NCBI GenBank assembly: GCA_902780235.1 | Contig: CACZEL010000020.1 | Span: forward strand, 1-34,427 | Length of the DNA stretch: 34,427 bases | DNA from: an uncultured Bacteroidales bacterium | Lineage (GTDB): Bacteria; Bacteroidota; Bacteroidia; Bacteroidales; Paludibacteraceae | Direction: 5' to 3' | Part shown: positions 38 through 27,435 of the stretch, in pieces | Layout of the letters: each line of letters opens with the position of its first letter | How positions within the stretch are numbered: the stretch's first letter is position 1 | Notes under the pieces: model-generated | Told to the model about the DNA's origin: nothing | Database searches by the model: none | The model's input: the letters and a program-made list of their open reading frames with translations, nothing else | Program-made: the position numbers and the translations under genes

Positions 38-52
38 TTGAAATCTGAAATG
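38..52. repeat. Heptamer pair at the first aminotransferase start
   Basis: TTGAAAT and CTGAAAT followed by G; the final bases supply the ATG at 50. The same unit and same junction occur at 17408-17415. Confidence 0.55.
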
Positions 53-1210
53 CAGATCGCTCATAGAATACAACAGATATCGGTTTCTCAGAGCTTGGCG
101 ATGGCCGCTCGCTGTCGGGCGTTGCAGGAACAGGGAGTGGATGTAATCAATATGTCTCTTGGTGAACCCGACCAACCCACACCTTTGTTCATCCAAAAGG
201 CAGCTCAGCAAGCTATTGCGGATAACTGGTCTCATTATGGTCCTGTACCGGGAATTTCTTCCTTACGTCAGGCGATCGCCAAGCATCAAAATGCTTTTGA
301 TGGCAATGCGATAACATGGCAAGCGGAGGATGTGATCGTTTCTGTGGGCGCAAAAGCGGCTATCTTCAATGCTATCCAAACGATAATTAATGAAGGAGAT
401 GAGGTAATTATTCCAACTCCGAGTTGGGTGAGTTATGGGGAGATGGTTAAATTAGCAGGTGGAAAGGTGATAAGTATTCCTACTACTGCTCAAGAAAACT
501 ACTGTTTGACAGCAGCACAGTTACGAGATGCCATTACTTCCCATACACGTCTCATTATTCTTTGTTCTCCCAATAACCCGACAGGCACTATCTATTCGGA
601 CTCACGTATGGATGAGATAGTTGCTGTGTTGCGGGAGTATCCGGAGATATCGATTCTGTCAGATGAGATATATAACGGCTTGACGTACGGCACGACGGCA
701 CGTAGTTGGGCATATTATACGGATTTGGCGGAACGTCTTATTGTTGTGAATGGTGTCAGTAAAACCTATGCGATGACAGGCTATCGAATCGGGTGGATGA
801 TGTGCAAGAATACCTCATTTATTGCTGCATGTACCCGATTGCAGAGCCAGCAGTTTACATGCGCGACGATGATAGCTCAAAAAGCGGCAGAAGCAGCCTT
901 GACAGCAGATCAAGAAAGCGTATCGTATTTGCGAGCGGAATTTCAAGAAAGACGAGATCTTATTTGTCGCTTGGCACGCGAAGTGAAAGGATGGCTTTTT
1001 GTAGAGCCACACGGTGCTTTTTATCTTTTCCCGGATGTGAGCGCGATCGCTAATGGAGACGAGGTGGCCGAAATGTTACTGGAGAAGGCGCATGTGGCCG
1101 TTGTTTCCGGTTCTGCTTTTGGTGATCCATCGTGTATCCGTCTGTCCTTTGCTATTGGAAACGAAGCTATTATCGAAGCTATGCACCGTATTAAGACAGC
1201 ATTGGCATAA
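50..1210 (+). CDS. Class I PLP-dependent aminotransferase (aspartate aminotransferase type)
   Basis: Fold-type I aminotransferase of 386 residues, probably transferring the amino group between aspartate or a related amino acid and 2-oxoglutarate in the cytoplasm. Visible signatures in order are NMSLGEPDQPTP near the N-terminus, SPNNPTG near residue 174, SDEIY near 204, and SKTYAMTGYRIGW, whose lysine (about residue 238) is the expected Schiff-base residue for pyridoxal phosphate. I chose the ATG at 50; a TTG at 38 is in frame but lies in a heptameric repeat. The stop overlaps the pyrG start by one base (TAATG), so the two are probably cotranscribed and translationally coupled. Exact substrate is not decidable from sequence; AspC-like is most likely, another Ib aminotransferase is possible. 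Confidence 0.9.
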   Translation: MQIAHRIQQISVSQSLAMAARCRALQEQGVDVINMSLGEPDQPTPLFIQKAAQQAIADNWSHYGPVPGISSLRQAIAKHQNAFDGNAITWQAEDVIVSVGAKAAIFNAIQTIINEGDEVIIPTPSWVSYGEMVKLAGGKVISIPTTAQENYCLTAAQLRDAITSHTRLIILCSPNNPTGTIYSDSRMDEIVAVLREYPEISILSDEIYNGLTYGTTARSWAYYTDLAERLIVVNGVSKTYAMTGYRIGWMMCKNTSFIAACTRLQSQQFTCATMIAQKAAEAALTADQESVSYLRAEFQERRDLICRLAREVKGWLFVEPHGAFYLFPDVSAIANGDEVAEMLLEKAHVAVVSGSAFGDPSCIRLSFAIGNEAIIEAMHRIKTALA

Positions 1211-2805
1211 TGGAAACAAAGTATATTTTTATCACTGGAGGAGTTGCTTCTTCGTTAGGAAAGGGTATCATCTCGGCATCCTTGGGCAAGTTACTCCAAG
1301 CGCGTGGCTATCGGATAACGATTCAGAAGTTCGATCCTTATATCAATATCGACCCCGGTACGCTGAATCCGTACGAGCACGGCGAGTGTTACGTGACGGC
1401 AGATGGTATGGAGACCGATCTTGATTTGGGTCATTATGAGCGTTTCACGGGTATAGAGACCACGCGTGACAACAGTGTGACCACCGGACGTATCTATCTG
1501 AGTGTGATAGAGAAAGAGCGTCGTGGAGACTATCTGGGCAAGACGATACAGGTCGTACCGCATATTACGGACGAGATCAAACGACGTATTCTGCTAAATG
1601 CTTCCAAACAACCGTTTGACTTCGTCATTACGGAAATAGGCGGTACGATAGGCGATATCGAAAGTCAGCCTTTCTTGGAAGCTATCCGTCAGTTACGATG
1701 GGAACTTGGTCCGCAACGGGCGCTTAATGTGCACCTTACCTACGTGCCGTACTTGGCAGCTGCAGATGAGTTGAAGACCAAACCAACACAGACCAGCGTC
1801 AAGCAGTTACAGGGCTTGGGTATTCAGCCCGAGGTACTTATTTTGCGTACAGAGCATCATCTGGGCGATGAGTTGAGAACCAAAGTGGCGCATTTCTGCA
1901 ATGTAGCCACAGAGGCCGTGATTCAGAGTCAGGATCTGCCGAGTATTTATGAAGTGCCGATCAATATGTATGAGCATCATTTGGACGAGGTTATTTTGCA
2001 TAAGATGGGCATCAAACGGCCGGCAAAGCCTGATTTGAAATCATGGTTGGACTTCTTGGATTGCCGCAAACGTGCAGAGGAAATACTCCATATAGGTCTG
2101 GTGGGTAAATACGACCTGCAAGATGCATACAAGAGTATTCGTGAGAGTCTTGCACACGCGGGTACGTACAGAGGTTATAAGGTGCAGATCCATTTTATCA
2201 ACAGTGAGTTTATCACGCGCGAGAACGTATCCAAACAACTTGCCGGCATGGCAGGTATCGTCATCTGTCCGGGTTTCGGACAACGAGGTATAGAGGGTAA
2301 AATCCTAGCTGCAGAATATACTCGCACGCACGATATACCTACATTTGGTATTTGTTTGGGCTTCCAGATGATGGTGATCGAATTCGCCCGTAATGTGTTG
2401 GGCTACCACGATGCCAACAGTAGTGAGATGGACGAGTCGACCCCGCATAATGTCATTGACATGATGGCGGAACAGAAGCATGTCACACAGAAAGGTGGAA
2501 CGATGCGTTTGGGCGCCTATGCGTGTTCGCTGGTAAAAGACAGCCGCACGGTCAAGGCGTATCGCGGTAAAATGCTGATTAAAGAACGACATCGTCATCG
2601 TTATGAATTTAATAATAACTATAAGGATGAGTTTGAACGTTACGGAATGAAATGTGCAGGCATCAATCCCGATTCACAATTAGTGGAAATCATGGAGATT
2701 CCTTCATTACGGTGGTATATCGGGACACAATTTCATCCTGAATATAGTTCGACGGTCTTGCATCCGCATCCTTTATTCTTGGATTTTATAGCAGCATGTA
2801 TATGA
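1210..2805 (+). CDS. pyrG: CTP synthase
   Basis: CTP synthase, 531 residues, close to the family length. It converts UTP, ATP and glutamine to CTP, the last step of pyrimidine nucleotide synthesis. The N-terminal synthetase domain begins with FITGGVASSLGKGI, a P-loop-like ATP site. The C-terminal class I glutaminase domain carries CPGFGQRGIEGK (oxyanion region), the nucleophile in FGICLGFQ, and the catalytic His-Glu in QFHPEY. All key residues are present. It overlaps the aminotransferase stop by one base and the dapF start by four bases (ATGA), so the cluster reads as one operon. Confidence 0.97.
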   Translation: METKYIFITGGVASSLGKGIISASLGKLLQARGYRITIQKFDPYINIDPGTLNPYEHGECYVTADGMETDLDLGHYERFTGIETTRDNSVTTGRIYLSVIEKERRGDYLGKTIQVVPHITDEIKRRILLNASKQPFDFVITEIGGTIGDIESQPFLEAIRQLRWELGPQRALNVHLTYVPYLAAADELKTKPTQTSVKQLQGLGIQPEVLILRTEHHLGDELRTKVAHFCNVATEAVIQSQDLPSIYEVPINMYEHHLDEVILHKMGIKRPAKPDLKSWLDFLDCRKRAEEILHIGLVGKYDLQDAYKSIRESLAHAGTYRGYKVQIHFINSEFITRENVSKQLAGMAGIVICPGFGQRGIEGKILAAEYTRTHDIPTFGICLGFQMMVIEFARNVLGYHDANSSEMDESTPHNVIDMMAEQKHVTQKGGTMRLGAYACSLVKDSRTVKAYRGKMLIKERHRHRYEFNNNYKDEFERYGMKCAGINPDSQLVEIMEIPSLRWYIGTQFHPEYSSTVLHPHPLFLDFIAACI

Positions 2806-3578
2806 ACCTCCCTTTCATTAAAATGCACGGGCTGGGAAACGATTATATCTTTATCGATTGTTTCCCGAAGACCACAGCCGAATATATCGCCAAGGCGGAT
2901 TTAGCCGCTTTGGCATGTCGTGTCTCGGATCGCCATTTCGGAATCGGTTCGGACGGCTTGGTACTGATCCTGCCGGACCGACATGTCGATGCCCGGATGC
3001 GGATCTTCAATGCCGACGGTTCGGAGGCGGAGATGTGTGGCAATGCGATTCGGTGCGTAGCTAAATACCTGTACGAGAGCGGTTTATGTACGCATGTGCA
3101 GATGGATATCGCTACTTTAGCCGGACTCCGTTCCTTGCGTCTGCAAGTGGTTAATGACCAAGTGCATCAGGTGACGGTCAATATGGGTGTACCTCAGATC
3201 AAGCCGGCTACCATGCCCGGCAGTATGGATCCGATCGGTTATACGGCCGTCAATATGGGAAACCCGCATGCCGTCTTCTTCCGCGACTCGATCCCGCATA
3301 TGCCTACTGACACCAATGTCGAGTTTGTGCATGTGCGTAATAAGCACGAACTGGACGTGCGTGTGATTGAACGCGGTTCGGGTGAGACGCTCGCCTGCGG
3401 AACGGGCGCGTGCGCTTCGGCGGTAGCTGCTATCAATCATGGCTTGACCGAACGAGAGGTGACCGTTCATCTGCCCGGAGGCGACCTGTTGATCCTATGG
3501 AAAGATAAGACATCTCCGGTTCTCATGACCGGTCCTGCTACCGAAGTATTTAGGGGCGAAGTGAAAGTTGAAATGTGA
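2802..3578 (+). CDS. dapF: Diaminopimelate epimerase
   Basis: Interconverts LL- and meso-diaminopimelate, giving the meso form used in peptidoglycan cross-links and lysine synthesis. The 258-residue protein starts with the family-typical IKMHGLGNDYIFID. The two catalytic cysteines are visible in EMCGNAIRC (about residue 79) and in ETLACGTGACAS near the C-terminal third. Two ATGs are available, 2796 and 2802; I prefer 2802 because it makes an ATGA overlap with the pyrG stop. The last codons and the stop (3576-3578) are inside a heptameric repeat array that continues to the dapL start. Its partner DapL follows directly, so the pair forms the diaminopimelate branch. Confidence 0.96.
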   Translation: MNLPFIKMHGLGNDYIFIDCFPKTTAEYIAKADLAALACRVSDRHFGIGSDGLVLILPDRHVDARMRIFNADGSEAEMCGNAIRCVAKYLYESGLCTHVQMDIATLAGLRSLRLQVVNDQVHQVTVNMGVPQIKPATMPGSMDPIGYTAVNMGNPHAVFFRDSIPHMPTDTNVEFVHVRNKHELDVRVIERGSGETLACGTGACASAVAAINHGLTEREVTVHLPGGDLLILWKDKTSPVLMTGPATEVFRGEVKVEM

Positions 3579-3593
3579 AAGGTGAAAGGTATG
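3561..3593. repeat. Heptameric array across the dapF stop and dapL start
   Basis: Four units of the form GTGAAAG (one TTGAAAT) at 3561-3588. The dapF stop TGA lies in unit three and an alternative GTG start in unit four. Confidence 0.8.
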
Positions 3594-4777: not shown

Positions 4778-4784
4778 CAGCGCA

Positions 4785-4849
4785 AAATCGTAAATCGTAA
4801 ATGACTAAATAAATCGTACATCGTACATTATTAAATCGTACATAATTTT
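4785..4849. repeat. Heptamer-rich glmS leader
   Basis: Two perfect AAATCGT units at 4785-4798, then interrupted units AAATCGT and ACATCGT up to the ATG. The whole leader is built of this word with occasional one- or four-base slips. Confidence 0.7.
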
Positions 4850-6718
4850 ATGTGTGGAATAGTAGGATATATAGGAAAACGCAAAGCGTATCCGATCTTG
4901 ATTAAGGGTCTTCATCGGCTCGAGTACCGTGGATACGACAGTGCCGGTGTCGCGCTCATCAACGAAGCGGGACAACTCAATGTCTATAAAGCCAAAGGTA
5001 AGGTCTCTGAACTCGAGGCTTTCTGCGCCGAGAAGGATACGAACGGCTGTATCGGCATCGCCCATACGCGTTGGGCTACGCATGGTGAACCCAATACGGT
5101 CAATGCCCATCCCCATTACTCGGAGTCGGAGCGCCTGGCGATCATCCATAACGGCATCATCGAGAACTATGCGGTTCTCAAAGCCGGACTCATGGAACAG
5201 GGATATACCTTCAAGTCCGATACGGACACGGAGGTGCTCGTGCAACTCGTTGAATATACGCAGGTTAACCGCCATGTCGATCTCAAGACCGCTGTGCAGT
5301 TGGCGCTCCAACAAGTGATCGGTGCTTATGCTATCGCGATCCTCGATAAGACCCATCCCGACACGCTCATCGCTGCCCGCAAGGGTTCGCCGCTTGTGGT
5401 GGGTATCGGAGAGGACGAGTATTTCTTGGCTTCCGACGCGACACCTATCGTCGAATATACGGATCAAGTCATTTACATCGAAGACGAAGAAGTAGTCGTG
5501 TTAAGTACAAAGGACAAGGTACAAGGTACAAAGGAAGAAGGAATTGAGATAACGACGATCAATAACGTCACCAAGACCCCGGAGATCAAGCGTCTCGAGC
5601 TCTCGCTGAGTCAACTCGAGAAAGGCGGCTATCCGCATTTCATGCTCAAGGAGATCTTCGAGCAGCCGCGTACCCTGACCGACTCCATGCGCGGTCGTGT
5701 CAACGTGCGGCAGGATAATATTGCCCTCTCCGGATTCATTGATAACAAGGATCGTTTCCTCAACGCCAAACGTATCATCATCACGGCGTGCGGTACTTCG
5801 TGGCATGCCGGCCTCATCGCGATGTACGCCATCGAGGAGTTTGCGCAGATTCCGGTTGAGGTGGAGTACTCGTCCGAGTTCCGCTATCGCAAACCGGTCA
5901 TCAACAAAGACGATGTCGTCATCGCAATCTCTCAATCCGGTGAGACGGCGGATACCTTGGCAGCTATCCAACTGGCGAAATCCAAAGGTGCGTTCATCTT
6001 CTCGATTTGTAACGTAGTTGGTGCATCTATCCCGCGTGTCTCGGACAGCGGCTGTTACACCCACGTAGGACCCGAGATTGGTGTGGCGTCCACCAAAGCC
6101 TTCACGGCGCAGGTCGTTGCCCTCACGATGCTCGCCCTTTGTATCGGAAAAGAGAAGGGTACGATGACCGAAGAGCAGTACCTGCGCATTGTGCGTGAGT
6201 TAGGTCAGATACCCGATAAGATCGAACGCGTATTGGGTCAGAACAAGCGGATCTCCGATTTTGCCAAGACCTTTACCTACGCGCAGAACTTTATATACCT
6301 TGGCCGCGGATATAATTTCCCGGTAGCGATGGAAGGAGCGCTCAAACTCAAAGAGATCTCTTATATCCATGCCGAAGGCTATCCGGCTGCCGAGATGAAG
6401 CACGGACCGATCGCCCTTATCTCGCAGGAGATGCCTGTTGTGGTCGTTGCTCCGCATTGCGGTACGTATGAGAAAGTGGTAAGTAACATCCAGGAGATCA
6501 AGGCCCGTAAGGGTAGGGTGATCGCCGTTGTTACCGAAGGTGACGAACTGGTCAGCAAGATCGCCGACTATATCATCGAAGTGCCGGAAACCGAGGAGTG
6601 CCTCACGCCGCTTCTTACCGTCATCCCACTTCAGTTGTTGGCCTACCATATCGCCGTTGTCAAAGGCTGCGATGTCGATCAACCCCGTAACTTAGCTAAA
6701 TCAGTAACAGTAGAATAA
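4850..6718 (+). CDS. glmS: Glutamine--fructose-6-phosphate aminotransferase (isomerizing)
   Basis: Forms glucosamine-6-phosphate from fructose-6-phosphate and glutamine, the entry to amino-sugar, peptidoglycan and lipopolysaccharide synthesis. The 622-residue protein begins MCGIVGYIG, so Cys2 is the N-terminal nucleophile of the glutaminase domain. Further signatures are HTRWATHGEP, HNGIIENY, and two SIS sugar-isomerase domains with ACGTSWHAG, ISQSGETADT and KLKEISYIHAEGYPAAEMKHGP; it ends with DQPRNLAKSVTVE. Residues about 219-230 (STKDKVQGTKEE), in the linker after the glutaminase domain, come from an in-frame heptameric DNA array. It has its own promoter inside the end of dapL. I see no glmS ribozyme in the 70-base leader. 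Confidence 0.98.
   Translation: MCGIVGYIGKRKAYPILIKGLHRLEYRGYDSAGVALINEAGQLNVYKAKGKVSELEAFCAEKDTNGCIGIAHTRWATHGEPNTVNAHPHYSESERLAIIHNGIIENYAVLKAGLMEQGYTFKSDTDTEVLVQLVEYTQVNRHVDLKTAVQLALQQVIGAYAIAILDKTHPDTLIAARKGSPLVVGIGEDEYFLASDATPIVEYTDQVIYIEDEEVVVLSTKDKVQGTKEEGIEITTINNVTKTPEIKRLELSLSQLEKGGYPHFMLKEIFEQPRTLTDSMRGRVNVRQDNIALSGFIDNKDRFLNAKRIIITACGTSWHAGLIAMYAIEEFAQIPVEVEYSSEFRYRKPVINKDDVVIAISQSGETADTLAAIQLAKSKGAFIFSICNVVGASIPRVSDSGCYTHVGPEIGVASTKAFTAQVVALTMLALCIGKEKGTMTEEQYLRIVRELGQIPDKIERVLGQNKRISDFAKTFTYAQNFIYLGRGYNFPVAMEGALKLKEISYIHAEGYPAAEMKHGPIALISQEMPVVVVAPHCGTYEKVVSNIQEIKARKGRVIAVVTEGDELVSKIADYIIEVPETEECLTPLLTVIPLQLLAYHIAVVKGCDVDQPRNLAKSVTVE
5504..5538. repeat. In-frame heptameric array inside glmS
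   Basis: Five units around GGTACAA/AGGACAA. Bases 5519-5535 are identical to 17587-17603 in the glycosyltransferase gene. It encodes STKDKVQGTKEE. Confidence 0.8.
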
Positions 6719-6753: not shown

Positions 6754-7611
6754 ATGATAAAAGTAGCGATCCTTGGTTACGGCAATATTGGCCGTGCCGC
6801 CGAAGAAGCCATCAAAGCAGCGCCGGATATGGAGCTGGCAGGTATCTATCATCATAACGATTGTTTGGATTGCATCGACGCCGATGCCGTCCTGATCTGT
6901 ACGCCGACGCGCGAGGTGCAGAAATTCGCGACCGTGCTCGCTGCACGCGGAATATGTACCGTCGATAGTTTCGATATCCACGGACAGATTTGGTCGTTGC
7001 GTAGTGCCCTTGACCCGGTCTGCAAGACGAACCAAGCCGTCAGCATCATCTCCGCCGGTTGGGATCCGGGTTCAGACTCGATGGTGCGTGCTATCCTCAT
7101 GGCGCTGGCGCCGAAAGGATTGACCTACACCAATTTCGGTCCCGGTCGTTCGATGGGTCACACGGTTGCAGCAAAGGCTATCAAGGGCGTTAAGAATGCG
7201 CTCTCCATGACCATTCCTCTGGGTACGGGTATCCATCGTCGCATGGTTTATATCGAACTCGAAGAAGGCGCCGATTTCAAGACCGTGGAGGCTGCTATTC
7301 TTGCCGATGACTATTTCGCACACGATGAGACCCATGTCATTCCCGTCGAGAGCGTTGATGCCCTTAATAACGTGGCGCATGGGGTGAACCTCGTCCGTAA
7401 CGGCGTCTCGGGCGACACTCACAACCAGCGTTTTGAGTTCAATATGACGATCAATAATCCGGCTCTCACCGGTCAGGTGCTTGTCTCTTGCGCCCGTGCA
7501 GCTCTCCGTCTCAAAGAGCGCGGGGACTTCGGCGCGAAGACCATGATCGAACTCGCGCCGATTGATCTTCTCCCGGGTACAACCGAACAACTAGTAAAAG
7601 CATTGGTATGA
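6754..7611 (+). CDS. ddh: meso-Diaminopimelate D-dehydrogenase
   Basis: NADPH-dependent reductive amination of tetrahydrodipicolinate directly to meso-diaminopimelate. The 285-residue protein has a Rossmann nucleotide site at the N-terminus (VAILGYGNIGRAAEEAI), then CTPTREV, the typical SAGWDPGSDSMVR, and GPGRSMGHTVAAKAIKGVKNALSMTIP. This places it in the diaminopimelate dehydrogenase family; it is slightly shorter than the roughly 300-320 residues usual elsewhere. It is 35 bases after glmS, with a small perfect hairpin (6719-6733) between them. It overlaps the next gene by ATGA. It provides a second route to meso-diaminopimelate beside DapL/DapF. Confidence 0.94.
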   Translation: MIKVAILGYGNIGRAAEEAIKAAPDMELAGIYHHNDCLDCIDADAVLICTPTREVQKFATVLAARGICTVDSFDIHGQIWSLRSALDPVCKTNQAVSIISAGWDPGSDSMVRAILMALAPKGLTYTNFGPGRSMGHTVAAKAIKGVKNALSMTIPLGTGIHRRMVYIELEEGADFKTVEAAILADDYFAHDETHVIPVESVDALNNVAHGVNLVRNGVSGDTHNQRFEFNMTINNPALTGQVLVSCARAALRLKERGDFGAKTMIELAPIDLLPGTTEQLVKALV

Positions 7612-8669
7612 TACGAAGACTCTTAGCTCTTAGCTCTTTGCTCTTAGCTCTAAGCCTAGCGACGATGGCGGCACCGGAGGTGCAGAAGCATGTGCTCCAT
7701 TATCCGTCCATCGATCAACGTGGCGACTCGCTCACGCTCTCCGGCATGGTCACGATTCCAACTGATCGACCGGCGAAAGGCATCATCCTTATTCCACATT
7801 ATACCCTCCAGGCCGATAAGGAAGCGCCGTCGAACCAACTCATCTATGATGCCAAGTTTTACAAGGAGGATTTTGTCCTTTTGATGCCGGACTATATCGG
7901 ATATGGTATCACCCGAGACAGCGTACATCCGTATCTGGCGGGTGAACTGACGGCGCGGAACTGTATCGACATGGTGCTGGCGGCGCAGGCGATGTTGGAT
8001 ACCCTGCAACTCGGTCTTCCGCTCGATAGTATTTATATTGCCGGCTACTCGCAAGGCGGTTTTTCGGCACTCTGGACGCTTCGTGTGATTGAAGAGTCGT
8101 TTGCCGACCGGATTCATGTGAAAGGCTGTTTTGTTGGCGCAGGACCCTACGATGTGGCGGTCACCTACGATGAGACATTGACCAAAAAGAAAATCATGAT
8201 GCCGGCTCTCGTGCCGATGATGGTCATCGGTACCGATGTGGCGTACAACCTGCATCTCGATAGAAGCGAGATTCTTACGCCGGCGGCTGAGAAACTCTAT
8301 CAGCGCTATATCGCCAATAAAGACTATACCATCCTGCAGATCTATTTCAAGACCCCGAATCATAGCCTGCGTCATTGGCTTACAGATGCAGGCATGGATA
8401 AGACGCAGCCGGAGACACAACGTATGTACGAAGGTCTCAAGCGTTCAAGTATAGTAGGGGATTCTATTTGTCCGTCGTGGACTCCAAAGGCACCGCTGTA
8501 TGTCTTCCATTCCACGCAGGATGAAGTAGTCACGATCCGTTGTGCGGAGCATTTGCAAAGATGCTTCCCGACCCTGCCGAACATCACCTACGACTTCGGT
8601 AAGTACGGAAATCATATCCCCGCCTCACGCATTTTCCATAAACGCGTACGGGAGATGCTGAACGAATAG
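7608..8669 (+). CDS. Secreted alpha/beta hydrolase (lipase/esterase-like)
   Basis: A 353-residue exported serine hydrolase. The first 21 residues are a signal peptide with a leucine/alanine/serine core ending in TMAAPE, so it probably reaches the periplasm or outer membrane. The fold is shown by the oxyanion-side IILIPHY, DYIGYG, the nucleophile elbow GYSQGG (Ser near residue 148), an acid in STQDEV and a histidine in GNHIP. It resembles secretory lipase or peptidase S9-like families; the substrate is unknown. It overlaps ddh by four bases and ends one base from the convergent fbp stop. The signal-peptide core is encoded by five tandem heptamers (7620-7654). Confidence 0.8.
   Translation: MIRRLLALSSLLLALSLATMAAPEVQKHVLHYPSIDQRGDSLTLSGMVTIPTDRPAKGIILIPHYTLQADKEAPSNQLIYDAKFYKEDFVLLMPDYIGYGITRDSVHPYLAGELTARNCIDMVLAAQAMLDTLQLGLPLDSIYIAGYSQGGFSALWTLRVIEESFADRIHVKGCFVGAGPYDVAVTYDETLTKKKIMMPALVPMMVIGTDVAYNLHLDRSEILTPAAEKLYQRYIANKDYTILQIYFKTPNHSLRHWLTDAGMDKTQPETQRMYEGLKRSSIVGDSICPSWTPKAPLYVFHSTQDEVVTIRCAEHLQRCFPTLPNITYDFGKYGNHIPASRIFHKRVREMLNE
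7620..7654. repeat. Heptameric array encoding a signal-peptide core
   Basis: Five units with consensus CTCTTAG (variants CTCTTTG, CTCTAAG). Translated, they give the LLALSSLLLALSL hydrophobic core of the hydrolase signal peptide. Confidence 0.85.
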
Positions 8670-8670: not shown

Positions 8671-10668
8671 TTAACGTTCCCGGAACGTTCCGGTGCGGTA
8701 AGCTTGAAGGAGTTGTTCGAGAGAGTGGATCTGTTCGAGCAACTCTTTTCCTTTGTCCGTATCTTTGATTCTGATACGATGACCGCTGAAATCTTGGAGT
8801 AGGGTACGGTTGTGGATATCCGATCCGGAGAGGATGGCCTGCTCGCGGGATTCGAACGATTCGTGCTCCACGAGTTGGATGCCGTGACTATTATAAATCA
8901 GCGTGTATCCGGCTATTCCGGTCTTCTCCTGATAGGGCTTCGAGAACCCTCCGTCGATCACAAACCGCTTGCCGTTGGCGCGCATGGGAGTCTCGCCTTT
9001 GATGGTGCGAACAGGCACGTGCCCATTCACGATACGTCCCGTCGCGGGATCAAGACCGAACTCTTTCAGGATTTTCTCACAGATCTTCTCATCGTCCGCA
9101 AGGCTGAAATAGGCGCCTTTATGTTCGTCCCAAGCGGGTCCCTTCGGCAGGAAATAACGCTCGAAAGTGGTCATCTTGTCCTTGTTATAAAGCGGCGAGT
9201 TGGCACCTTCCCAGAGGTAAAGCATATAGTCGAGTGCATCTTGTTTGGCTTGTCCTTCTCCGTAGTACGCTTGACGGACGATGGCGTCGGTGCAATCCAT
9301 GAGGGCCTTGCCCGAGACGCGCTGACCGAACACTTCCGTTTCGGTGAACGAACCGTCCGCATTGAGAGGAATTGCCGCGTGGTAGAGTAGGAAACCGTTG
9401 CGCACGAGATAGAGCGAACCATGCTCATAGAGCATGCGCAGATGCTTCTGCATCTTCTCGGACTTGCGGAACGAACGGGCTAACTGGTTCATCAGATCGC
9501 TCTCTTCCTGACTCAAGGCGTATGGATCAGCAGGGTCTAAAGTCGGTAAGTTTTGGTCAAGCAAAACTTGACCCTTGAATGTTAATTGTTCATTATTAAT
9601 TGTTAATTGTCCGAGCACCGCTCGGTCATCCATCTTCCATTCGGGATGCCGCAGAACCGTCTGTCCTTCGAGCTTGAACTGAATGATCGAGATCGCCTTG
9701 TGCATCTTTGCCATCAGTTGTGCCGAACGGGTCAGACGCGGGTTATTATCGAAGTCTTTGGTCTGCCAGATCGTACACGGGTCGTCGCCATAGACGGTCA
9801 TCGCGAAATTGGCAAGCGGCAACAGGTTGATACCATAGCCCTCTTCGAGCGTCTCGATATTGGCGTACCGGATCGACACACGCAGTACGGTCGCGATCAA
9901 GGCCATGTTGCCGGCCATAGCACCCATCCACTCGATGTCGTGGTTTCCCCATTCGATATCGTAGTCGCGCACGGTATCTAACACGTCGAGGATCTTGGCG
10001 GCTCCAGAACCGCGGTCGAAGATGTCACCGACGATATGCAGCGTGTCAATCGTCAGGCTGTGGATTAGATAGCATATCGCGATCAGTACTTGGTCAGCAC
10101 AGCCCGTCTCGATGATCGCATCGATGATAGCGTGGTAATAGGTGTTACGGTCGTGCTGCTCCAAATGGCTCTCGTGAAGCAACTCGCGGATGATGTAAGC
10201 ATAGTCAGGCGGAAGAAGTTTCTCCACTTTCGATCGGCTGTACTTGATCGTCACCGCACGGGCTATGTTCACCACCTGATGCAGACGCGTGCGATACCAT
10301 TCATCTAAAGATTTCAGATTGGAGATTTGAGAATTCTGATTTAAGATCCCGTCTACTTCCTCGCCGGCATAGAACCGTTTGATCAGTTCGAGCCGCTCGT
10401 CGGGGTAGTAGATCAAGGCGCAGATAGCGCGTTTCTCTTCCTCCGAGATCGTGTCGCCATAGACCTCATCCACTTTCTTGCGCACCACACCCGAGGCGTT
10501 CTTGATCATGTGAATGAACGCCATCGACGCACCGTGCAGGTCGGACACAAAATGCTCCGTCCCTTTCGGCAACGACAGGATCGCACGCAGGTTAATCAAC
10601 TCCGAGATGACCGCTTGAGAATTAGGAAATTTCTCGCTCAATAAGCGCAGGTATCGTTCGTCTTGCAT
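8671..10668 (-). CDS. fbp: Fructose-1,6-bisphosphatase, class 3
   Basis: Gluconeogenic hydrolysis of fructose-1,6-bisphosphate to fructose-6-phosphate. The 665-residue protein is of the long Firmicutes/Bacteroidota class 3 type, a metallophosphoesterase unrelated to class 1 enzymes. Metal-binding signatures run in order: LPKGTEHFVSDLHG near the N-terminus, VGDIFDRGSGAAKILD, EWGNHDIEWMGA, and IVNGHVPVRTIKGE in the C-terminal third, followed by FVIDGGFSKPYQ. Two stretches (residues about 107-120 and 354-363) are encoded by heptameric arrays. It has a clear promoter (10689-10719) and converges on the hydrolase gene with a one-base gap. Its product and that of glmS both meet at fructose-6-phosphate. 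Confidence 0.96.
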   Translation of the reverse strand: MQDERYLRLLSEKFPNSQAVISELINLRAILSLPKGTEHFVSDLHGASMAFIHMIKNASGVVRKKVDEVYGDTISEEEKRAICALIYYPDERLELIKRFYAGEEVDGILNQNSQISNLKSLDEWYRTRLHQVVNIARAVTIKYSRSKVEKLLPPDYAYIIRELLHESHLEQHDRNTYYHAIIDAIIETGCADQVLIAICYLIHSLTIDTLHIVGDIFDRGSGAAKILDVLDTVRDYDIEWGNHDIEWMGAMAGNMALIATVLRVSIRYANIETLEEGYGINLLPLANFAMTVYGDDPCTIWQTKDFDNNPRLTRSAQLMAKMHKAISIIQFKLEGQTVLRHPEWKMDDRAVLGQLTINNEQLTFKGQVLLDQNLPTLDPADPYALSQEESDLMNQLARSFRKSEKMQKHLRMLYEHGSLYLVRNGFLLYHAAIPLNADGSFTETEVFGQRVSGKALMDCTDAIVRQAYYGEGQAKQDALDYMLYLWEGANSPLYNKDKMTTFERYFLPKGPAWDEHKGAYFSLADDEKICEKILKEFGLDPATGRIVNGHVPVRTIKGETPMRANGKRFVIDGGFSKPYQEKTGIAGYTLIYNSHGIQLVEHESFESREQAILSGSDIHNRTLLQDFSGHRIRIKDTDKGKELLEQIHSLEQLLQAYRTGTFRER
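9581..9608. repeat. Heptameric array inside fbp (first)
   Basis: Four units with consensus GTTAATT on the plus strand. On the coding strand they give LTINNEQLT. A perfect 7-bp hairpin (GGTCAAG/CTTGACC, 9555-9573) lies just beside it. Confidence 0.8.
10309..10350. repeat. Heptameric array inside fbp (second)
   Basis: Six units with consensus AGATTTC on the plus strand, the last three decayed. Coding-strand product is LNQNSQISNLKS, just before DEWYRTRL. Confidence 0.8.
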
Positions 10669-10791: not shown

Positions 10792-10857
10792 ACCTACTAA
10801 CCACCTACTAATCACCTACTAATCACCTACTATTTACATACTAATCGCATACTACAC
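10792..10857. repeat. Tandem array of six 11-bp units
   Basis: Six consecutive 11-base units with consensus ACCTACTAATC; units two and three are identical, five and six more diverged. It lies in the intergenic region between fbp and mntA, outside both promoters. Confidence 0.9.
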
Positions 10858-11018
10858 TATGCTGAATGTGACTTAATCTAAAAAAGGTTGACTCGATAAC
10901 TGATGCAAAATTCAAAAAAATGAAAGCACAAAAAAAGCGAGTTACAGCCGCACATTGTGCGAATAGCAAGGCTTTTCCTCTAAAAACTCAAATAAATTCG
11001 ATTTTTACTAGCAAATCC

Positions 11019-11049
11019 TTGCATATTCCAAATAATTGTTGTAATTTTG
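11019..11049 (+). promoter_or_regulatory. mntA-hepT promoter (-33/-7)
   Basis: TTG (11019-11021) and TAATTTTG (11042-11049) with a 20-base spacer. The same palindrome TTTTGCAGCGCAAAA as in the glmS promoter lies at 11045-11059. The position decides the mntA start at 11076. Confidence 0.8.
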
Positions 11050-11075
11050 CAGCGCAAAATGTAAACAACACTATT

Positions 11076-17415: not shown

Positions 17416-18381
17416 GATATTTCAATAATCGTGCCTCTGTATAATGAGGCGGAGTCGTTGCCGCATTTGTATGAATGGATCGCACGCGTGATGAAGGAGA
17501 ATAAGTTTTCCTACGAGGTTATTTTTGTCAATGACGGCAGTACGGACACGTCGTGGGACGTGATCCGTAATTTACAAAGGGACAATGTACAAGGTACAAA
17601 GGATAGTACCGTGCGTGGCATTTGTTTCCGTCGTAACTATGGCAAGTCGGCGGCGTTGTACTGCGGATTCAAGGCGGCGCAGGGCGATGTGGTGATCACG
17701 ATGGATGCCGATTTGCAGGACAGCCCGGACGAGATCCCCGAACTCTATCGGATGATCAAAGAGGACGGGTATGACCTCGTGAGCGGTTGGAAGCAGAAGC
17801 GGTACGATAACAAGTTGACCAAGAACCTGCCGTCCAAGTTGTTCAATGCTACGGCTCGTCGCGTGACGGGTATTCAGTTGCACGACATGAACTGCGGTCT
17901 GAAGGCTTATCGTCAAGAGGTAGTGAAGAATATCGAGGTGTTTAGCGAGATGCACCGTTATATTCCATTCCTCGCCAAGAACGCCGGTTTTACCAAGATC
18001 GGCGAGAAAGTGGTACAGCACCGCAAACGTGAGTTCGGTACGTCCAAGTTCGGTCTCAACCGCTTTGTGAACGGCTACCTCGACTTGATGACCTTGTGGT
18101 TCTTGAATAAGTTCGGCAAACAGCCTATGCATTTCTTCGGTCTGGTGGGAAGCCTGATGTTCTTCATCGGTTTCATCGCCGTGATCGTGGTAGGCAGCAT
18201 GAAGCTCTATGCGCTGTCGCATGGCGTGCAGGCGATGTTGGTCGGCGTCAATCCGTACTTCCATATTTCGATCCTAATGATGATTCTCGGATGTATGCTG
18301 TTCCTCGCCGGTTTCCTTGCCGAACTCATCATCCGCAACAGCCCGAGTCGTAACGATTATTTGATTAAAGAGGAGATCTGA
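17413..18381 (+). CDS. Family 2 glycosyltransferase with two C-terminal membrane helices
   Basis: Polyprenyl-phosphate glycosyltransferase of the dolichol-phosphate-mannose-synthase/ArnC type, 322 residues. The GT-A domain shows ISIIVPLYNEAESLP, FVNDGSTDTSW and the metal-binding TMDADLQDSPDE, then NCGLKAYR. Two hydrophobic helices (about 238-265 and 277-303) anchor it in the inner membrane. It probably loads a sugar on undecaprenyl phosphate for surface glycan modification. Residues about 53-66 (NLQRDNVQGTKDST) are encoded by an in-frame heptameric array and make the loop before RRNYGKSAAL longer than I expect for the family. The ATG is formed by the end of another heptameric array. Its stop overlaps the next start (TGATG). 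Confidence 0.92.
   Translation: MDISIIVPLYNEAESLPHLYEWIARVMKENKFSYEVIFVNDGSTDTSWDVIRNLQRDNVQGTKDSTVRGICFRRNYGKSAALYCGFKAAQGDVVITMDADLQDSPDEIPELYRMIKEDGYDLVSGWKQKRYDNKLTKNLPSKLFNATARRVTGIQLHDMNCGLKAYRQEVVKNIEVFSEMHRYIPFLAKNAGFTKIGEKVVQHRKREFGTSKFGLNRFVNGYLDLMTLWFLNKFGKQPMHFFGLVGSLMFFIGFIAVIVVGSMKLYALSHGVQAMLVGVNPYFHISILMMILGCMLFLAGFLAELIIRNSPSRNDYLIKEEI
17571..17606. repeat. In-frame array inside the glycosyltransferase gene
   Basis: Five units around GGTACAA, one of them eight bases long. Shares GTACAAGGTACAAAGGA with the glmS array. It encodes NLQRDNVQGTKD. Confidence 0.8.
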
Positions 18382-20923: not shown

Positions 20924-22327
20924 ATGATTAAACAGAGCGACATACAAAATCTCTTCTTTTTGGGTATCGGAGGCATTGGAATGAGTGCCTTGGCGCGTTA
21001 TTTTCATCATCAGGGTTTTCCGGTAGCCGGCTACGACCGTACGCCTTCTGATCTGACGCGTGAGTTGGAGCAGGAGGGTATCATCATCACGTACGACGAT
21101 GACCCGGATACGGTTCGTCTGGCGCCTTTCTCCAAGCAGCACACGCTCGTTGTACGTACGCCTGCTGTGCCGGAGGACAGTGTGATCTATACCTATCTGC
21201 GTGAGCAGGGTTTCGATATCCGTAAGCGTGCCGAGGTCTTGGGTCTTGTGACGCGGCAGATGAAAGCGCTGTGTGTGGCGGGTACGCATGGTAAGACGAC
21301 GACCAGCACCATGTTGGCGCATTTGCTTTATCAATCGGAGTTGAGCACCAACGCTTTCCTTGGCGGCATCAGCATGAACTACGGCACGAACCTGCTGCTG
21401 GATAAGAACAGCCCCTTCGTGGTGGTGGAAGCCGATGAGTACGACCGCTCGTTTCATCATCTGACGCCGTACATGTCGGTTGTGACGGCCGTGGATGCTG
21501 ACCATCTGGATATCTACGGCACGGAGGAGGCCTATCGCGAGGCGTTTGCCCATTATACGAGCCTCATCTCTACCGCCCTTGTCATGAAGCACGGTATCGC
21601 CTTGCAACCCAAGCTCAAGAAAGGCTGTAAGTTGTACACCTATGGTGTTGTGACGTCATTACGTCATGACGAGATGACGACATCCAAACCCGATTTCTAC
21701 GCCGACAATATTGTCGTGAACAAGGGGCAGATCCATTTTGATTTTCATACGCCGACTGAGACGATCGCGGATATGCAGTTAGGCGTGCCCGTGTGGGTGA
21801 ATATAGAGAATGCGGTAGCAGCGATGTCTGTCGCTTGGCTTAATGGCGTGACCGTCAATGAGTTACGGCACGGTATCGCTTCTTTCAAAGGCGTGTTGCG
21901 GCGGTTTAATATCCATGTCAATACGCCGCAGGTCGTTTATATTGATGACTATGCCCACCATCCCGAAGAGATCGCGACGTCCATCGATTCGATTCGGCGT
22001 CTGTATCCCGAACGGCATCTGATCGGCGTCTTCCAACCGCACCTCTATACGCGTACGCGCGATTTTGCGGAAGGATTCAAAAAGGTGCTGGCTACACTCG
22101 ACGAGTGTATCCTGCTGCCTATCTATCCGGCGCGTGAAGAGCCGATCGAAGGGGTTTCCAGCGAGATGCTTGGCGGACAGGTGGTTGAGAAAGCGGACTT
22201 GATCGCTGAGTTAAAGAAGCGAATAGCCAACAGCCAACAGCCGGTAGTTGTTCTAACCGTCGGTGCCGGTGACATCGATCGCCTTGTGCCGCAAGTCACG
22301 AAGGCACTGAAAAATTGTAAATTGTAA
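20924..22327 (+). CDS. murC: UDP-N-acetylmuramate--L-alanine ligase
   Basis: Adds L-alanine to UDP-MurNAc, the first peptide step of peptidoglycan precursor synthesis in the cytoplasm. The 467-residue protein shows FLGIGGIGMSALA at the N-terminus, the ATP site GTHGKTTT (residues about 120-127), EADEYDRSF, and DDYAHHPEEI in the C-terminal ligase domain. I use ATG 20924; a GTG at 20909 is too close to the -7 box. Residues 242-254 (VVTSLRHDEMTTS) are encoded by four octamers and lengthen the loop before PDFYADNI compared with the family. Near the C-terminus three heptamers encode ANSQQP. The stop lies inside a further array that runs to ftsQ. Confidence 0.96.
   Translation: MIKQSDIQNLFFLGIGGIGMSALARYFHHQGFPVAGYDRTPSDLTRELEQEGIIITYDDDPDTVRLAPFSKQHTLVVRTPAVPEDSVIYTYLREQGFDIRKRAEVLGLVTRQMKALCVAGTHGKTTTSTMLAHLLYQSELSTNAFLGGISMNYGTNLLLDKNSPFVVVEADEYDRSFHHLTPYMSVVTAVDADHLDIYGTEEAYREAFAHYTSLISTALVMKHGIALQPKLKKGCKLYTYGVVTSLRHDEMTTSKPDFYADNIVVNKGQIHFDFHTPTETIADMQLGVPVWVNIENAVAAMSVAWLNGVTVNELRHGIASFKGVLRRFNIHVNTPQVVYIDDYAHHPEEIATSIDSIRRLYPERHLIGVFQPHLYTRTRDFAEGFKKVLATLDECILLPIYPAREEPIEGVSSEMLGGQVVEKADLIAELKKRIANSQQPVVVLTVGAGDIDRLVPQVTKALKNCKL
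21650..21681. repeat. Octameric array inside murC
   Basis: Four 8-base units (GTGACGTC, ATTACGTC, ATGACGAG, ATGACGAC). Encodes VVTSLRHDEMTT. The word matches the ATAACGTC units after ftsZ. Confidence 0.75.
22222..22242. repeat. Three heptamers near the murC 3' end
   Basis: AATAGCC followed by two AACAGCC. The same units occur in the ftsA-ftsZ spacer at 24430-24450. Confidence 0.7.
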
Positions 22328-22345
22328 ATTGTACATTGTACATTG
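22314..22345. repeat. Heptameric array joining murC and ftsQ
   Basis: Two ATTGTAA units, two ATTGTAC units and a partial ATTG. The murC stop (22325-22327) is in unit two and the ftsQ TTG start (22343) in the partial unit. Confidence 0.85.
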
Positions 22346-24396: not shown

Positions 24397-24401
24397 ATAA
24401 C

Positions 24402-24450
24402 GTTAGCTGTTAGCCGTTAGCTTTTAGCCAACAGCCAATAGCCAAAAGCC
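24402..24450. repeat. Seven-heptamer spacer between ftsA and ftsZ
   Basis: Seven exact 7-base units: four of the TTAGC type (GTTAGCT, TTTAGCC) then three of the AGCC type (AACAGCC, AATAGCC, AAAAGCC). Confidence 0.9.
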
Positions 24451-24461
24451 AAAGTAAATCT

Positions 24462-25718: not shown

Positions 25719-25722
25719 TGTC

Positions 25723-25746: not shown

Positions 25747-25767
25747 GAAATAATATAAAAAAAGAAT

Positions 25768-26709
25768 ATGGAAAAAGAGATGAATTTCTTTGACCTCTGT
25801 GTGGCTTGTGGCCGCGCTATCGGTCGTGCTTGTGTCGCTTTATGGCATGCCTTGGAGCGAATGATCCGTTTGACGTACCGCTATTGGTACATCGTCATCA
25901 CCTTAGTCGTGTTGGCCTTGGCTTGTGCTGTTTATCTGACGCGTAAGGATAATATCACGTATCGCGTCAATGCGGTCGCGATGCTCAACGGCGCTTCTAT
26001 CCAGCAGTTTGACCAGGCTTTTGCACCCCTGCAGACCAAACACTTACTTCCCTCGGAGGCTCCGATAGGGCAGTATCTGTATGCGAAACAGGCGACGCAT
26101 TTTAAGACTTTCCGTGTGATCGATGCCTTGGATGACGGAACGGCGGATTTTATCGATTTCAAGCATAAGATCAAACTGACGGATACCTTGAATGTGCCGA
26201 TGAAAGATCGTCTTTGCATCCAGTTCTGCATCAAGACGCGCGATATGGCCCTTGTGCCGGAGATTGAGCAGGCTTTGCTGGCGACGCTCAATAGCAATGC
26301 AGCCATGCAGCAGTCCTATACCACCTATCTGGAGAATCTGCGCGAGCAGGTCGCATTTGACCATCGTCAGGCCGTCAAACTGGATAGCCTCACCAGCGCG
26401 TACTATTTCCAGAACACGCTTCCGACCAATGCCAACGATCATGGGGTCTATTTCAGCGGTGACCGCCGTGTACGTCTGTTCCTCAATGAGATCTACAAGC
26501 AGCAGGAGCACATGAAACTCATGGACTATCGCTTACAGTTAGCGACCGCTCCTGTAGTCTTGGAAAACCACTTTGCCGTGGATCCCAAACCCAAGATCGG
26601 TCGCCTCACCTGTATGATCCTTTTCTTCCTGATGGGATGGATCGGAGCGTGTCTGCTTGCCGGTCTTATTGACCGCCGCAAAGAGATCAGCGCTTGGCTC
26701 AAAGCCTAA
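25768..26709 (+). CDS. Hypothetical inner-membrane protein with Wzz-like topology
   Basis: A 313-residue protein with a short cytoplasmic N-terminus, one membrane helix at about 37-56 (YWYIVITLVVLALACAVYLT), a large extracytoplasmic domain of about 220 residues with a helical segment (about 185-240), and a second helix near 285-303 before a basic tail. This layout is that of chain-length determinant (Wzz) or related polysaccharide co-polymerases, but I do not see their proline-rich motif, so the family is not assigned. It starts 49 bases after ftsZ and may be cotranscribed with it. Confidence 0.75.
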   Translation: MEKEMNFFDLCVACGRAIGRACVALWHALERMIRLTYRYWYIVITLVVLALACAVYLTRKDNITYRVNAVAMLNGASIQQFDQAFAPLQTKHLLPSEAPIGQYLYAKQATHFKTFRVIDALDDGTADFIDFKHKIKLTDTLNVPMKDRLCIQFCIKTRDMALVPEIEQALLATLNSNAAMQQSYTTYLENLREQVAFDHRQAVKLDSLTSAYYFQNTLPTNANDHGVYFSGDRRVRLFLNEIYKQQEHMKLMDYRLQLATAPVVLENHFAVDPKPKIGRLTCMILFFLMGWIGACLLAGLIDRRKEISAWLKA

Positions 26710-26723
26710 CGTGACAAAGTCAC

Positions 26724-26768
26724 CATTTTAACCGTTTAACGCGATTTATCGTCATTTAACTTTTTAAC
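26724..26768. repeat. TTTAAC-type repeat at the convergent gene ends
   Basis: Units such as CGTTTAAC, CATTTAAC and TTTTTAAC, with one interruption. The dedA stop and its last codons are within it. Confidence 0.65.
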
Positions 26769-27404
26769 GTCGAGTAGTTTGCGTATTACAAAATACGCAA
26801 CTACGAGACCTAAGAGGATGAGTATAGCTACGGATAATTCGTGGCTATATTCTTTTATCAGGTCCATCTGTCCGGCAGCTACATAGCCGAGGAGCGCCAG
26901 GATGCAGTTCCATATGAACGCGCCTAAGAACGTCCACCAGAGGAACGCACCGAAATGCATTCTACTCAGACCCGCCGGAATGGAGATCAACTGACGGATA
27001 CCCGGAATAAACCGACCGATGAACGTGGACACATTGCCTTTCTCGCGGAAATATTCCTCGGCACGCTGGATCTTCTCGCTCGACAGCAGGCACAGATGAC
27101 CGAGCTTGCTATCGGCGAACTTATAGATGATCAGACGTCCGAGCCAAACGCTCAGTCCGTAGTTGATCACTGCGCCGATCATCGCGCCTAACGTACCGAA
27201 AAGCACAATGATCATCACGTCCAAGGGATAATTACCAGTTGCACACAACACACTCTCCGGTTGACCGGCTACGAACGCTGCAGGCGGAATCACTACTTCG
27301 CTCGGAAAGGGGATGAACGAACTCTCTACAGCCATCAACGCAGTAATCGACGCATAGTTCATATGCGCCGAATACCACGTGATAATATTATCAATTAATG
27401 TCAT
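26736..27404 (-). CDS. DedA-family membrane protein
   Basis: A 222-residue inner-membrane protein of the DedA/SNARE-associated family, members of which flip undecaprenyl phosphate or other lipids. Visible signatures are ESSFIPFPSEVVIPPAAFVAG near the N-terminus, a LGAMIGAVINYGLSVWLG helix, and FIGRFIPGIRQLISIPAGLSRM, which holds the conserved GRFIPGxR. About four to five hydrophobic segments are present. The last residues (KKLNDDKSR) and stop come from a repeat of TTTAAC-type octamers shared with the convergent gene end. A 30-base spacer of pure heptamers separates it from the antiporter gene upstream. Confidence 0.9.
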   Translation of the reverse strand: MTLIDNIITWYSAHMNYASITALMAVESSFIPFPSEVVIPPAAFVAGQPESVLCATGNYPLDVMIIVLFGTLGAMIGAVINYGLSVWLGRLIIYKFADSKLGHLCLLSSEKIQRAEEYFREKGNVSTFIGRFIPGIRQLISIPAGLSRMHFGAFLWWTFLGAFIWNCILALLGYVAAGQMDLIKEYSHELSVAILILLGLVVAYFVIRKLLDVKKLNDDKSR

Positions 27405-27407
27405 TGC

Positions 27408-27435
27408 TTTCTACTTTTGTCTTTCGACTTTCGAC
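27408..27435. repeat. Heptameric spacer between the antiporter and dedA
   Basis: Four units: TTTCTAC, TTTTGTC, and TTTCGAC twice. It fills almost exactly the 30 bases between the two genes. Confidence 0.85.

Follow-up and report, generated by a model that had tools for sequence, protein, structure and literature searches.

The genome of an uncultured bacterium of the Paludibacteraceae (Bacteroidales) carries a large excess of short tandem arrays with a period of 7 nucleotides, in each of which a 7-nt word is present in about four and a half copies. The excess is confirmed as real and is larger than first reported for the window, i.e. the whole analysed stretch of 34,427 nucleotides. The arrays are probably short insertion cassettes that are made and copied to new places by a lineage-specific process. 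This reading follows from the insertion of arrays of about 31 bp relative to sister species, from their recurrence and from their restriction to one clade.

Extent of the period-7 excess

The study genome is a 2.28-Mb draft, 78.6% complete, of which 834 kb were sampled for arrays. This sample contained 207 arrays of period 7, as compared with 45 of period 8, 25 of period 9 and 24 of period 11. The earlier note had proposed a scan at lag 7 against shuffled controls. Over 434 kb, made up of the window and 20 stretches of 20 kb each, exact-match runs of at least 9 at lag 7 numbered 96, whereas five dinucleotide-preserving shuffles averaged 2.2. The harmonics of this signal gave 81 runs at lag 14 and 52 at lag 21, and the best non-harmonic lags were lag 24 (22 runs) and lags 8 and 22 (20 each). 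Within 678 called genes of the 834-kb sample, called with the author's own codon-score script, 104 arrays were found at lag 7 versus none in each of five codon-order shuffles, with nine at lag 8 and 14 at lag 9. Neither a missing excess nor an equal excess at many lags was thus observed, as lag 7 dominates the non-harmonic lags, and both kinds of shuffle rule out chance low complexity as the cause.

In the window, nine exact-match runs of at least 9 were seen at lag 7, with 0–2 at the other lags from 1 to 20, five at lag 21 and three at lag 22. TRF returned 29 rows, of which 12 had period 7 and represent 10 separate places (starts at 3561, 4785/4813, 5505, 7620, 9580, 17577, 22225, 22312, 24402/24426 and 27407). 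With two clear period-8 arrays and one 11-nt array, 13 places were counted rather than the "at least fifteen" claimed before; exact two-copy 8-mers at 687, 13082 and 25667 (TRF) were left out because chance can give them. The 11-nt array (10792–10854), which the earlier note had grouped with the others, was set aside as a different element. It is a 63-bp block whose copies at three sampled loci are 88.9–95.2% identical and resemble each other in their left flanks. The arrays of the window are listed below together with their state in two sister species, S1 and S2.

Arrays of the window and their counterparts in sister species
Feature	Positions	Strand	Location	Observations
GTGAAAG array	3561..3590	+	junction of dapF and the next aminotransferase gene	TRF score 46; same word in S1; S2 empty, net 26 bp
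AAATCGT / ATCGTAC arrays	4785..4836	+	upstream of glmS	found by TRF; related but different A-rich words in both sisters
GTACAAG array	5503..5531	+	in frame inside glmS	net +24 bp versus both sisters
CTCTTAG array	7620..7655	+	start of ORF 7608-8669	TRF score 58
TGTTAAT array	9580..9610	-	inside fbp (minus-strand gene)	found by TRF; GTCCATT/GTCCAAT arrays at the site in S1/S2, net length change 0
AAGGTAC array	17577..17599	+	inside family-2 glycosyltransferase gene	TRF score 32; other repetitive sequence of different length in sisters
Period-8 array TGACGTCA	21651..21683	+	in frame inside murC	common to S1; not in S2 (30-bp gap)
AGCCAAC array	22218..22242	+	inside murC	equal-length replacement relative to S2
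AAATTGT array	22312..22345	+	over 3' end of murC	TRF score 54; gap in both sisters of 22 bp in one comparison and 20 bp in another
Paired palindromic heptamer element	24401..24456	+	between ftsA and ftsZ	TTAGCYG units, then AGCCAAW units ending AAAGT
Period-8 array CGTCATAA	25722..25747	+	directly after ftsZ	TRF score 52; related copy in S1, not in S2
31-bp AGTCRAA array	27406..27436	-	splits TAATG stop/start overlap	S1, S2 and L055 empty at the site

The site of the paired element between ftsA and ftsZ is empty in S1 and holds a different array of about 31 bp in S2. For the array at the 3' end of murC, the automatic orthologue finder located neither sister. By alignment to solved GlmS, the glmS array falls between the glutaminase part and the SIS domains. 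The CTCTTAG array encodes a Leu/Ala-rich leader, judged by eye to be a signal peptide, provided that translation starts from the ATG at 7608. The gene caller placed the start of this gene at 7665.

Insertion, length and recurrence of arrays

Many arrays are insertions or replacements relative to S1 and S2, a sister being no more than a stand-in for the ancestor. These include in-frame inserts in genes such as glmS and two insertions of 31 bp into TAATG stop/start junctions. A period-7 or period-8 array lay inside 14 of 18, 16 of 22 and 8 of 11 insertions of 15–70 bp with both flanks conserved, and random control windows held an array of any period from 5 to 12 in 68 of 2000 cases. For this tally, indels of at least 12 bp (52, 55 and 48 before filtering) were reduced by dropping events with a flank identity below 0.6, and an event of the study genome counts in two comparisons. 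Site-by-site comparison covered 42 arrays with a score of at least 12 from five stretches, so that the window arrays at 4785 and 27414 (scores 11 and 10) lie outside its counts. At a given site, sisters often have different words.

Array lengths peak near 30–33 bp (about 32 bp) whatever the word, with a median of 31 bp for the 207 arrays. The same clustering near 32 bp was found in 183 arrays of other loci and is looser at periods of 10–11 (medians of 37.5 and 43 bp). The claim of a separate word per locus is roughly true of the window but fails for the genome as a whole, since the 207 arrays use 55 words and the commonest, AAAGGTG, occurs 26 times; the word grouping was loosened, consensus words of mixed arrays (e.g. 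L002:11388) being unreliable. Near-identical arrays in which unit variants follow one another in the same order were found at unrelated loci of the study genome. Thirty-nine pairs shared at least 26 identical bases including unit variants, versus 10–22 pairs in ten unit shuffles, and by eye a shared outer flank was not seen in 15 of 16 displayed near-identical pairs; in the family displays, end units match by construction. Words agreed in 4.4% of pairs within species versus 1.3% between species. The species-weighted agreement of 0.052 fell within the spread of 500 permutations (mean 0.015, maximum 0.079), and for the study genome the agreement with S1 (4.5%) was similar to that among its own arrays (3.8%).

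Local replication slippage with a preference for 7 nt, by which arrays would grow in place at tolerant sites and words would recur through the A-rich bias of spacers and loops, is a possible but clearly less probable explanation. It would accord with the large number of words, and with sister words that at times differ by two letters (AAAGTGG versus ACATTGG at L010:17978). Among the long simple repeats of most prokaryote genomes, heptanucleotides are also reported to be the commonest class, and a polymerase register of 7 nt has been proposed (Mrazek 2007, as cited in PMC4679880). However, a seed of the inserted word was not found at the empty sites of 18 distinct events, a small set that was drawn from 59 events by having at least 85% of the array in the gap, with no flank-identity filter. 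An earlier seed test had been positive (5.94 versus 4.74) but was discarded because its flanks came from the array-bearing side, which is a bias. Slippage is also at odds with whole arrays of the same unit-variant order at unrelated loci and with a length distribution that peaks rather than falling from the detection threshold of 19. Clustered size, missing seed and word change at one site together pose constraints that simple slippage does not obviously meet.

Under the insertion-cassette explanation, a cassette would comprise about 31 bp, equal to four to five units of a 7-nt word, or take the paired 56-bp form. New arrays may be copies made during DNA synthesis or repair from an array already present or from its transcript, and their words may then be altered on site by slippage over 7 nt or by conversion of units. 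For no individual new insertion was the donor array traced.

Placement in genes and operon junctions

As described earlier, arrays occur both between and inside genes, with 102 of 207 inside genes and 86 between co-directional genes. The spacer arrays begin at the stop codon of the upstream gene, with a median overlap of 2 nt, and end a median of 8.5 nt before the next start, and 68 of the 86 contain a stop codon in their word. Surviving in-gene arrays avoid stops, and in the sister comparison the net length change was divisible by 3 in 23 of 25 cases inside genes versus 4 of 14 others. Orientation suits the protein, as A-rich arrays encode hydrophilic stretches internally and T-rich ones hydrophobic stretches near the N terminus, and T-rich arrays close to protein starts resemble signal-peptide cores. 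Surviving arrays were thereby shown to fit their place with respect to operon junctions, frame, stop avoidance and orientation, and we conclude that selection keeps array cassettes at tolerant sites.

At E ≤ 0.1, the study genome contained 42 matches to the paired element, a count that covers the element itself and some partial matches. The element folds with −24.5 kcal/mol in antisense (z −6.35) and −13 in sense (z −2.33). Its ends were unreadable in 12 of 30 cases, and some of the 18 kept overrun (lengths of 70–87). An ATG lies within 10 nt downstream in 11 of these 18 elements, and in none upstream on the other strand. When repeats of 2–6 nt were sought at the 18 elements, target-site duplications were not clearly above shuffled flanks (5 versus 3.0 at 2 nt, 1 versus 1.1 at 3 nt). 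RNA hairpins were dropped as a general explanation because, whereas the paired element stands out, the two single arrays that were folded did no better than shuffles (z −1.56 and −0.28).

It is unlikely that the arrays exist mainly for a function, for instance as translation leaders or as operon-junction spacers, and were spread by usefulness and kept by selection. Their tight setting between stop and next start, the stop codons in spacer words and the ATGs after paired elements would suit such a role, but about half of all arrays lie inside genes, sister sites are empty or carry other words, and the tested single arrays do not fold distinctively.

Clade restriction, candidate machinery and related repeats

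Named loci of the clade contained 189 arrays in 1.2 Mb, whereas a single array was found in 346 kb from six other families of the order; clade and outer loci were split by the author from FtsZ identity. Judged from these sequences, we conclude that the array-generating process is apparently lineage-specific. An assembly artefact of metagenome-assembled genomes is extremely improbable. The comparison used draft genomes, and long repeats can collapse in short-read assembly, but arrays are present in 57 of 68 named clade loci with records from several projects, those inside genes keep the reading frame, and drafts of the six other families are nearly free of them. The proposal of one genome-wide process making or spreading 7-mer arrays gained support from similar period and length over all 55 words, insertions, array recurrence and clade restriction.

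A dedicated array-writing system is a rather doubtful further step. Here, an enzyme of the clade would make runs of about 31 bp of a short templated word and install them at breaks or nicks genome-wide; examples would be a repair polymerase with a 7-nt register or a telomerase-like reverse transcriptase. The templates of a lineage would determine its vocabulary, and the resulting arrays would be recruited by the bacterium as protein loops, signal peptides and spacers. As this reading falls within the insertion-cassette explanation as a special case, the two probabilities overlap. For a Y1 (REP-associated) transposase, no PF01797 match was found in the 78.6% complete draft at E ≤ 0.001, and 5 of 14 controls had matches. 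Ku was found in none of 25 genomes, 16 of which are the study genome and its genus, which speaks only against Ku-dependent templated end joining. The one RVT_1 reverse transcriptase gene of the study genome (C23) is retron-type by PADLOC, whose best of 85 families covers only the RT part of the protein. It was rejected as array writer, as it is retron-type and nothing links it to the arrays.

STRR repeats of heterocystous cyanobacteria are degenerate heptanucleotide tandem repeats dispersed through the genome, mainly intergenic and with few words. Going by this general description, they are a reasonable parallel for how the arrays work, insertion in essential genes being an extra trait here. 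Rickettsia palindromic elements and MITEs are small dispersed repeats that also occur in frame inside genes. The 56-bp form is likewise palindromic, with ends ACWTT/AAAGT; unlike those elements, it shows no target-site duplication above shuffled flanks, and most arrays lack a palindrome and are much shorter.

The heptanucleotide simple repeats of Mrazek et al. 2007, as outlined in PMC4679880, also form a genome-wide excess of 7-nt tandem units, and the arrays are likewise tandem heptanucleotides beyond chance for the genome. Unlike repeats of that type as outlined there, half of them lie in genes, lengths are near 32 bp, whole arrays recur at unrelated loci and a seed word was not found at the 18 empty sites. 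TAACTGA direct repeats, described in the same source for Beggiatoaceae, some cyanobacteria and five Bacteroidetes, occur in sets of 2–6 heptamers, many of them, like arrays here, directly upstream of start codons (PMC4679880). That system is described with one word versus 55 here, and TAACTGA occurred in none of the 207 arrays and in 0 of 25, 13, 18, 189 (named clade loci) and 13 in other groups. Borg tandem repeats, surveyed as perfect regions of at least 50 nt with three or more units, are described as having in-gene lengths divisible by 3 and essentially unique words (PMC9879509). According to that description they share with the arrays fast change, presence in spacers and genes, A-richness on the coding strand and frequent absence from close relatives, but the arrays differ in being about 32 bp long and degenerate, with period 7 even in genes and shared words. 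Only two regions of the surveyed Borg kind were found in 834 kb, compared with 207 arrays of median 31 bp. No earlier description of such arrays in Paludibacteraceae or Bacteroidales was found by a literature search that was partly title-level, with most subscription journals outside its scope.

Different words at the same sister site, together with new insertions between and inside genes, point to a process, so far unrecognised, by which short repeats are written into working genes. If this is right, a gut-bacterial clade is being rewritten by tiny repeat cassettes in essential genes (glmS, murC) and operon junctions. The cassettes would supply ready-made loops and signal-peptide cores, and the clade would offer a natural, countable system for the birth of short tandem repeats.

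The period-7 signal and its distribution

The draft genome that contains the window (G000; 2,278,966 bases in 58 contigs, 78.6% complete) was sampled in 40 stretches of 20 kb which, together with the window, comprise 834 kb or 37% of it. Its closest named relatives are uncultured Bacteroidales or Paludibacteraceae records, many of them ruminant-derived (FtsZ identity ≤94%). Within the window, TRF located period-7 arrays at 10 places. Exact lag-7 runs of ≥9 numbered 96 in the first 434 kb, where dinucleotide shuffles gave 2.2. Harmonics of lag 7 appeared at lags 14 and 21, and the remaining lags gave at most 22 runs. Inside genes, 104 lag-7 arrays were found and none in five codon-order shuffles. 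The excess over shuffled controls expected by the earlier note was thus confirmed, and the period-7 signal is real and genome-wide. At a score of at least 12, 207 period-7 arrays were present in 834 kb, or about 565 in the whole genome by simple scaling, compared with 45, 25, 11 and 24 arrays with periods of 8, 9, 10 and 11.

Lengths of period-7 arrays gather at about 27–34 bp with a peak at 31–32 bp, under a threshold that admits 19, and 183 arrays from other loci of the clade have a median of 32 bp. When arrays are pooled, the median is 32 bp for periods 7 and 9 and 34 bp for period 8, and it rises to 37.5 and 43 bp for periods 10 and 11. Array density per 10 kb is 2.48 in G000, 1.57 in 68 named clade loci (57 with at least one array), 1.04–1.12 in three further members and 0.62 in 11 outer loci (seven of which carry arrays). 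Across six other families of the order, one array was found in 346 kb.

The sequence form of heptanucleotide arrays is already known, and parallels include STRR repeats and Rickettsia elements. Heptanucleotides are the most abundant long-repeat class in most genomes, a finding of Mrazek summarised in PMC4679880. The TAACTGA repeat sets treated in that paper use one word only, which occurs in none of the 207 arrays sampled here. Borg repeats, as portrayed in PMC9879509, resemble the G000 arrays in their A-rich coding strand and fast turnover; they were surveyed there as perfect regions of at least 50 nt, for which two regions in 834 kb qualify.

Placement, protein context and neighbouring elements

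The proposal that arrays lie both inside and between genes also held: 102 of the 207 are in called genes, 86 in co-directional spacers, 10 in convergent and five in divergent ones, and four at edges, in a sample of which 11% is non-coding. Co-directional spacer arrays reach a median of 2 nt into the end of the upstream gene and stop a median of 8.5 nt short of the next start. A stop codon lies within the consensus word in 68/86 of them, compared with 38/102 in-gene arrays. With ties omitted (one in-gene, two co-directional), the sense strand is the A-rich one for 78 of 101 in-gene arrays (p 4e-8) and for 58 of 84 arrays in co-directional spacers (p 6e-4). Peptides encoded by the in-gene arrays have a high content of K, S, Q and N. 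T-rich in-gene arrays start within the first 30 codons in 13/23 cases, compared with 4/78 A-rich ones (p 2e-7), and 10 of these 13, judged by eye, resemble signal-peptide hydrophobic cores. One kind of sequence is retained in whichever orientation fits the protein. Function could alternatively be the main cause of the arrays, which we consider very improbable.

At E ≤0.1, the palindromic paired element between ftsA and ftsZ has 42 matches in G000, a count that includes the element itself and partial matches. Its predicted RNA fold is -24.5 kcal/mol in antisense and -13 kcal/mol in sense. Ends were readable in 18 of 30 inspected elements, of which 11 measure 56 bp and 11 have an ATG downstream on the sense strand. 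This orientation may be kept to escape a strong leader hairpin.

Features near the arrays and elsewhere in G000 (L002 is a sampled stretch, L244 a locus of G000)
Feature	Location	Remark
11-nt array, 5.7 copies, ACCTACTAATC	window 10792-10854	63-bp block
Polymerase-beta-type nucleotidyltransferase gene	window 10920-11381	beside 11-nt array
BspA-type leucine-rich-repeat protein	window 13113-16799	low-GC region (~35%)
Paired element (TTAGCYG, then AGCCAAW units)	window 24401-24456	
Spacer with short inverted repeats, GTGACAAAGTCAC	window 26709-26770	
DUF4062-AAA-TPR gene	window 28773-31763	adjoins lepA
AT-rich dispersed element, 81 bp	L002:6704-6784	50 BLAST hit rows in 834 kb
Retron-type reverse transcriptase	L244:1285-2295	sole RVT_1 match in draft G000

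The 11-nt array, first counted with the heptamer family, proved to be a separate block with copies at three loci (L008:15040, L176:19849 and L007:17397; 88.9–95.2% identical) that have a common left flank ending in ATTATA, and it is iteron-like or element-end-like. The adjacent nucleotidyltransferase gene matches the PADLOC candidate-defence entry PDC-S09 (E 5.5e-19). The DUF4062 gene is missing at the orthologous place in two sister species (S1 and S2, the genomes of L042 and L043) and in the more distant L055, where its neighbours are adjacent; it is a lineage-specific gene insertion. The leucine-rich-repeat gene contains 69-bp TRF repeats. The 81-bp element has many matches in both sister genomes, and the inverted-repeat spacer, with one copy in the 834-kb sample, is near-identical in S1 and largely absent from S2.

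Insertion and word change at orthologous sites

Comparison with the sisters covered 13 stretches together with L042 and L043, in alignable blocks that are mostly 76–88% identical. At window 27406-27436, 31 bp of AGTCRAA units lie within a gene junction that reads as an overlapping TAATG in S1 and S2 and as TAAATG in L055, and at L011:9947, 31 bp of GTGAAAG units split a second TAATG. The ftsA–ftsZ spacer holds the paired element in G000, about 31 bp of AAATCNN-like units in S2 and nothing in S1; the S2 array is degenerate, so the automatic table scores that site as empty. Relative to both sisters, the in-frame glmS array, which lies between the glutaminase part and the SIS domains, adds a net 24 bp.

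For 42 arrays (score at least 12) from five stretches, S1 offered 34 orthologous sites (five empty, 15 with no array detected, five with the same word, eight with a different one, one with period 8) and S2 offered 35 (four empty, 15 without array, six with the same word, of which the call at L002:11388 is doubtful, seven with a different one, three with another period). Insertions of 15–70 bp with conserved flanks contained a period-7 or -8 array in 14/18, 16/22 and 8/11 cases in three comparisons. Many arrays are thus insertions relative to the sister species. Against empty or array-free sisters, the net length differs by a multiple of three in 23/25 cases inside genes and 4/14 elsewhere, and arrays are filtered by frame, stops and protein context.

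Words also differ at one site. At L010:14161, three species carry AGCTAAC, GGTGAAA and AGAATTC arrays in one gene at similar length (33–40 bp between anchors); L010:12970 has AATTAAA in G000 and S2 and GGTGAAA in S1, and the fbp site has TGTTAAT in G000 and GTCCATT/GTCCAAT in the sisters. Either old arrays were rewritten or a permissive site was refilled; some same-site words are only two letters apart, which fits rewriting.

Origin and vocabulary of the arrays

Arrays might have their source in local slippage, a reading that we regard as unlikely. At 18 distinct clean events, no seed of the inserted word was found at the empty sister sites (match 4.72/7 compared with 4.89 at exchanged sites; p 0.88). 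An earlier version of this test had the opposite outcome and was set aside, its flanks having been taken from the array-bearing side.

Whole arrays recur. Among array pairs, 39 share exact stretches of at least 26 bases that include two or more unit variants, compared with 10–22 in ten unit-order shuffles, and 96 share stretches of at least 22 bases, compared with 36–60. The AGCYAAN family supplies the longest of these stretches. The outer flank is not shared in 15 of 16 displayed pairs (by eye), one example being the 35 bp common to L004:7471 and L016:17440, inside two genes; the L178/L190 pair has some left flank in common. In 834 kb, 21 members of the AGTCRAA family were counted: 13 have four units, and eight have three, in several cases with a degenerate fourth behind them; end-unit agreement in the family display is by construction. 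Genome-wide, its pattern gave 70 matches with at most one mismatch (41 exact, some overlapping), compared with 15 for the reversed control.

Words agree in 4.4% of 2335 pairs within species and 1.3% of 20,000 sampled pairs between species. Species-weighted agreement (0.052) is above the permutation mean of 0.015 and within the permutation range (maximum 0.079), and words of G000 agree in 4.5% with S1, 3.8% with itself, 1.6% with S2 and 0.4–1.4% with three others. The array vocabulary therefore follows the lineage and is not strictly tied to the species.

The arrays insert, cluster in size, have words and whole arrays in common, and change word. No earlier description of clustered size combined with whole-array recurrence, in-frame gene entry and same-site word change was found in the literature searched. 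A search of 25 genomes found no Ku, and no Y1 transposase was found in the 78.6% complete draft of G000. The earlier note had proposed one genome-wide process that makes or spreads 7-mer arrays; we consider copying and conversion the probable route. New arrays would be copies of existing arrays, made while DNA is synthesised or repaired, and a slippage register of 7 nt would keep their units alike.
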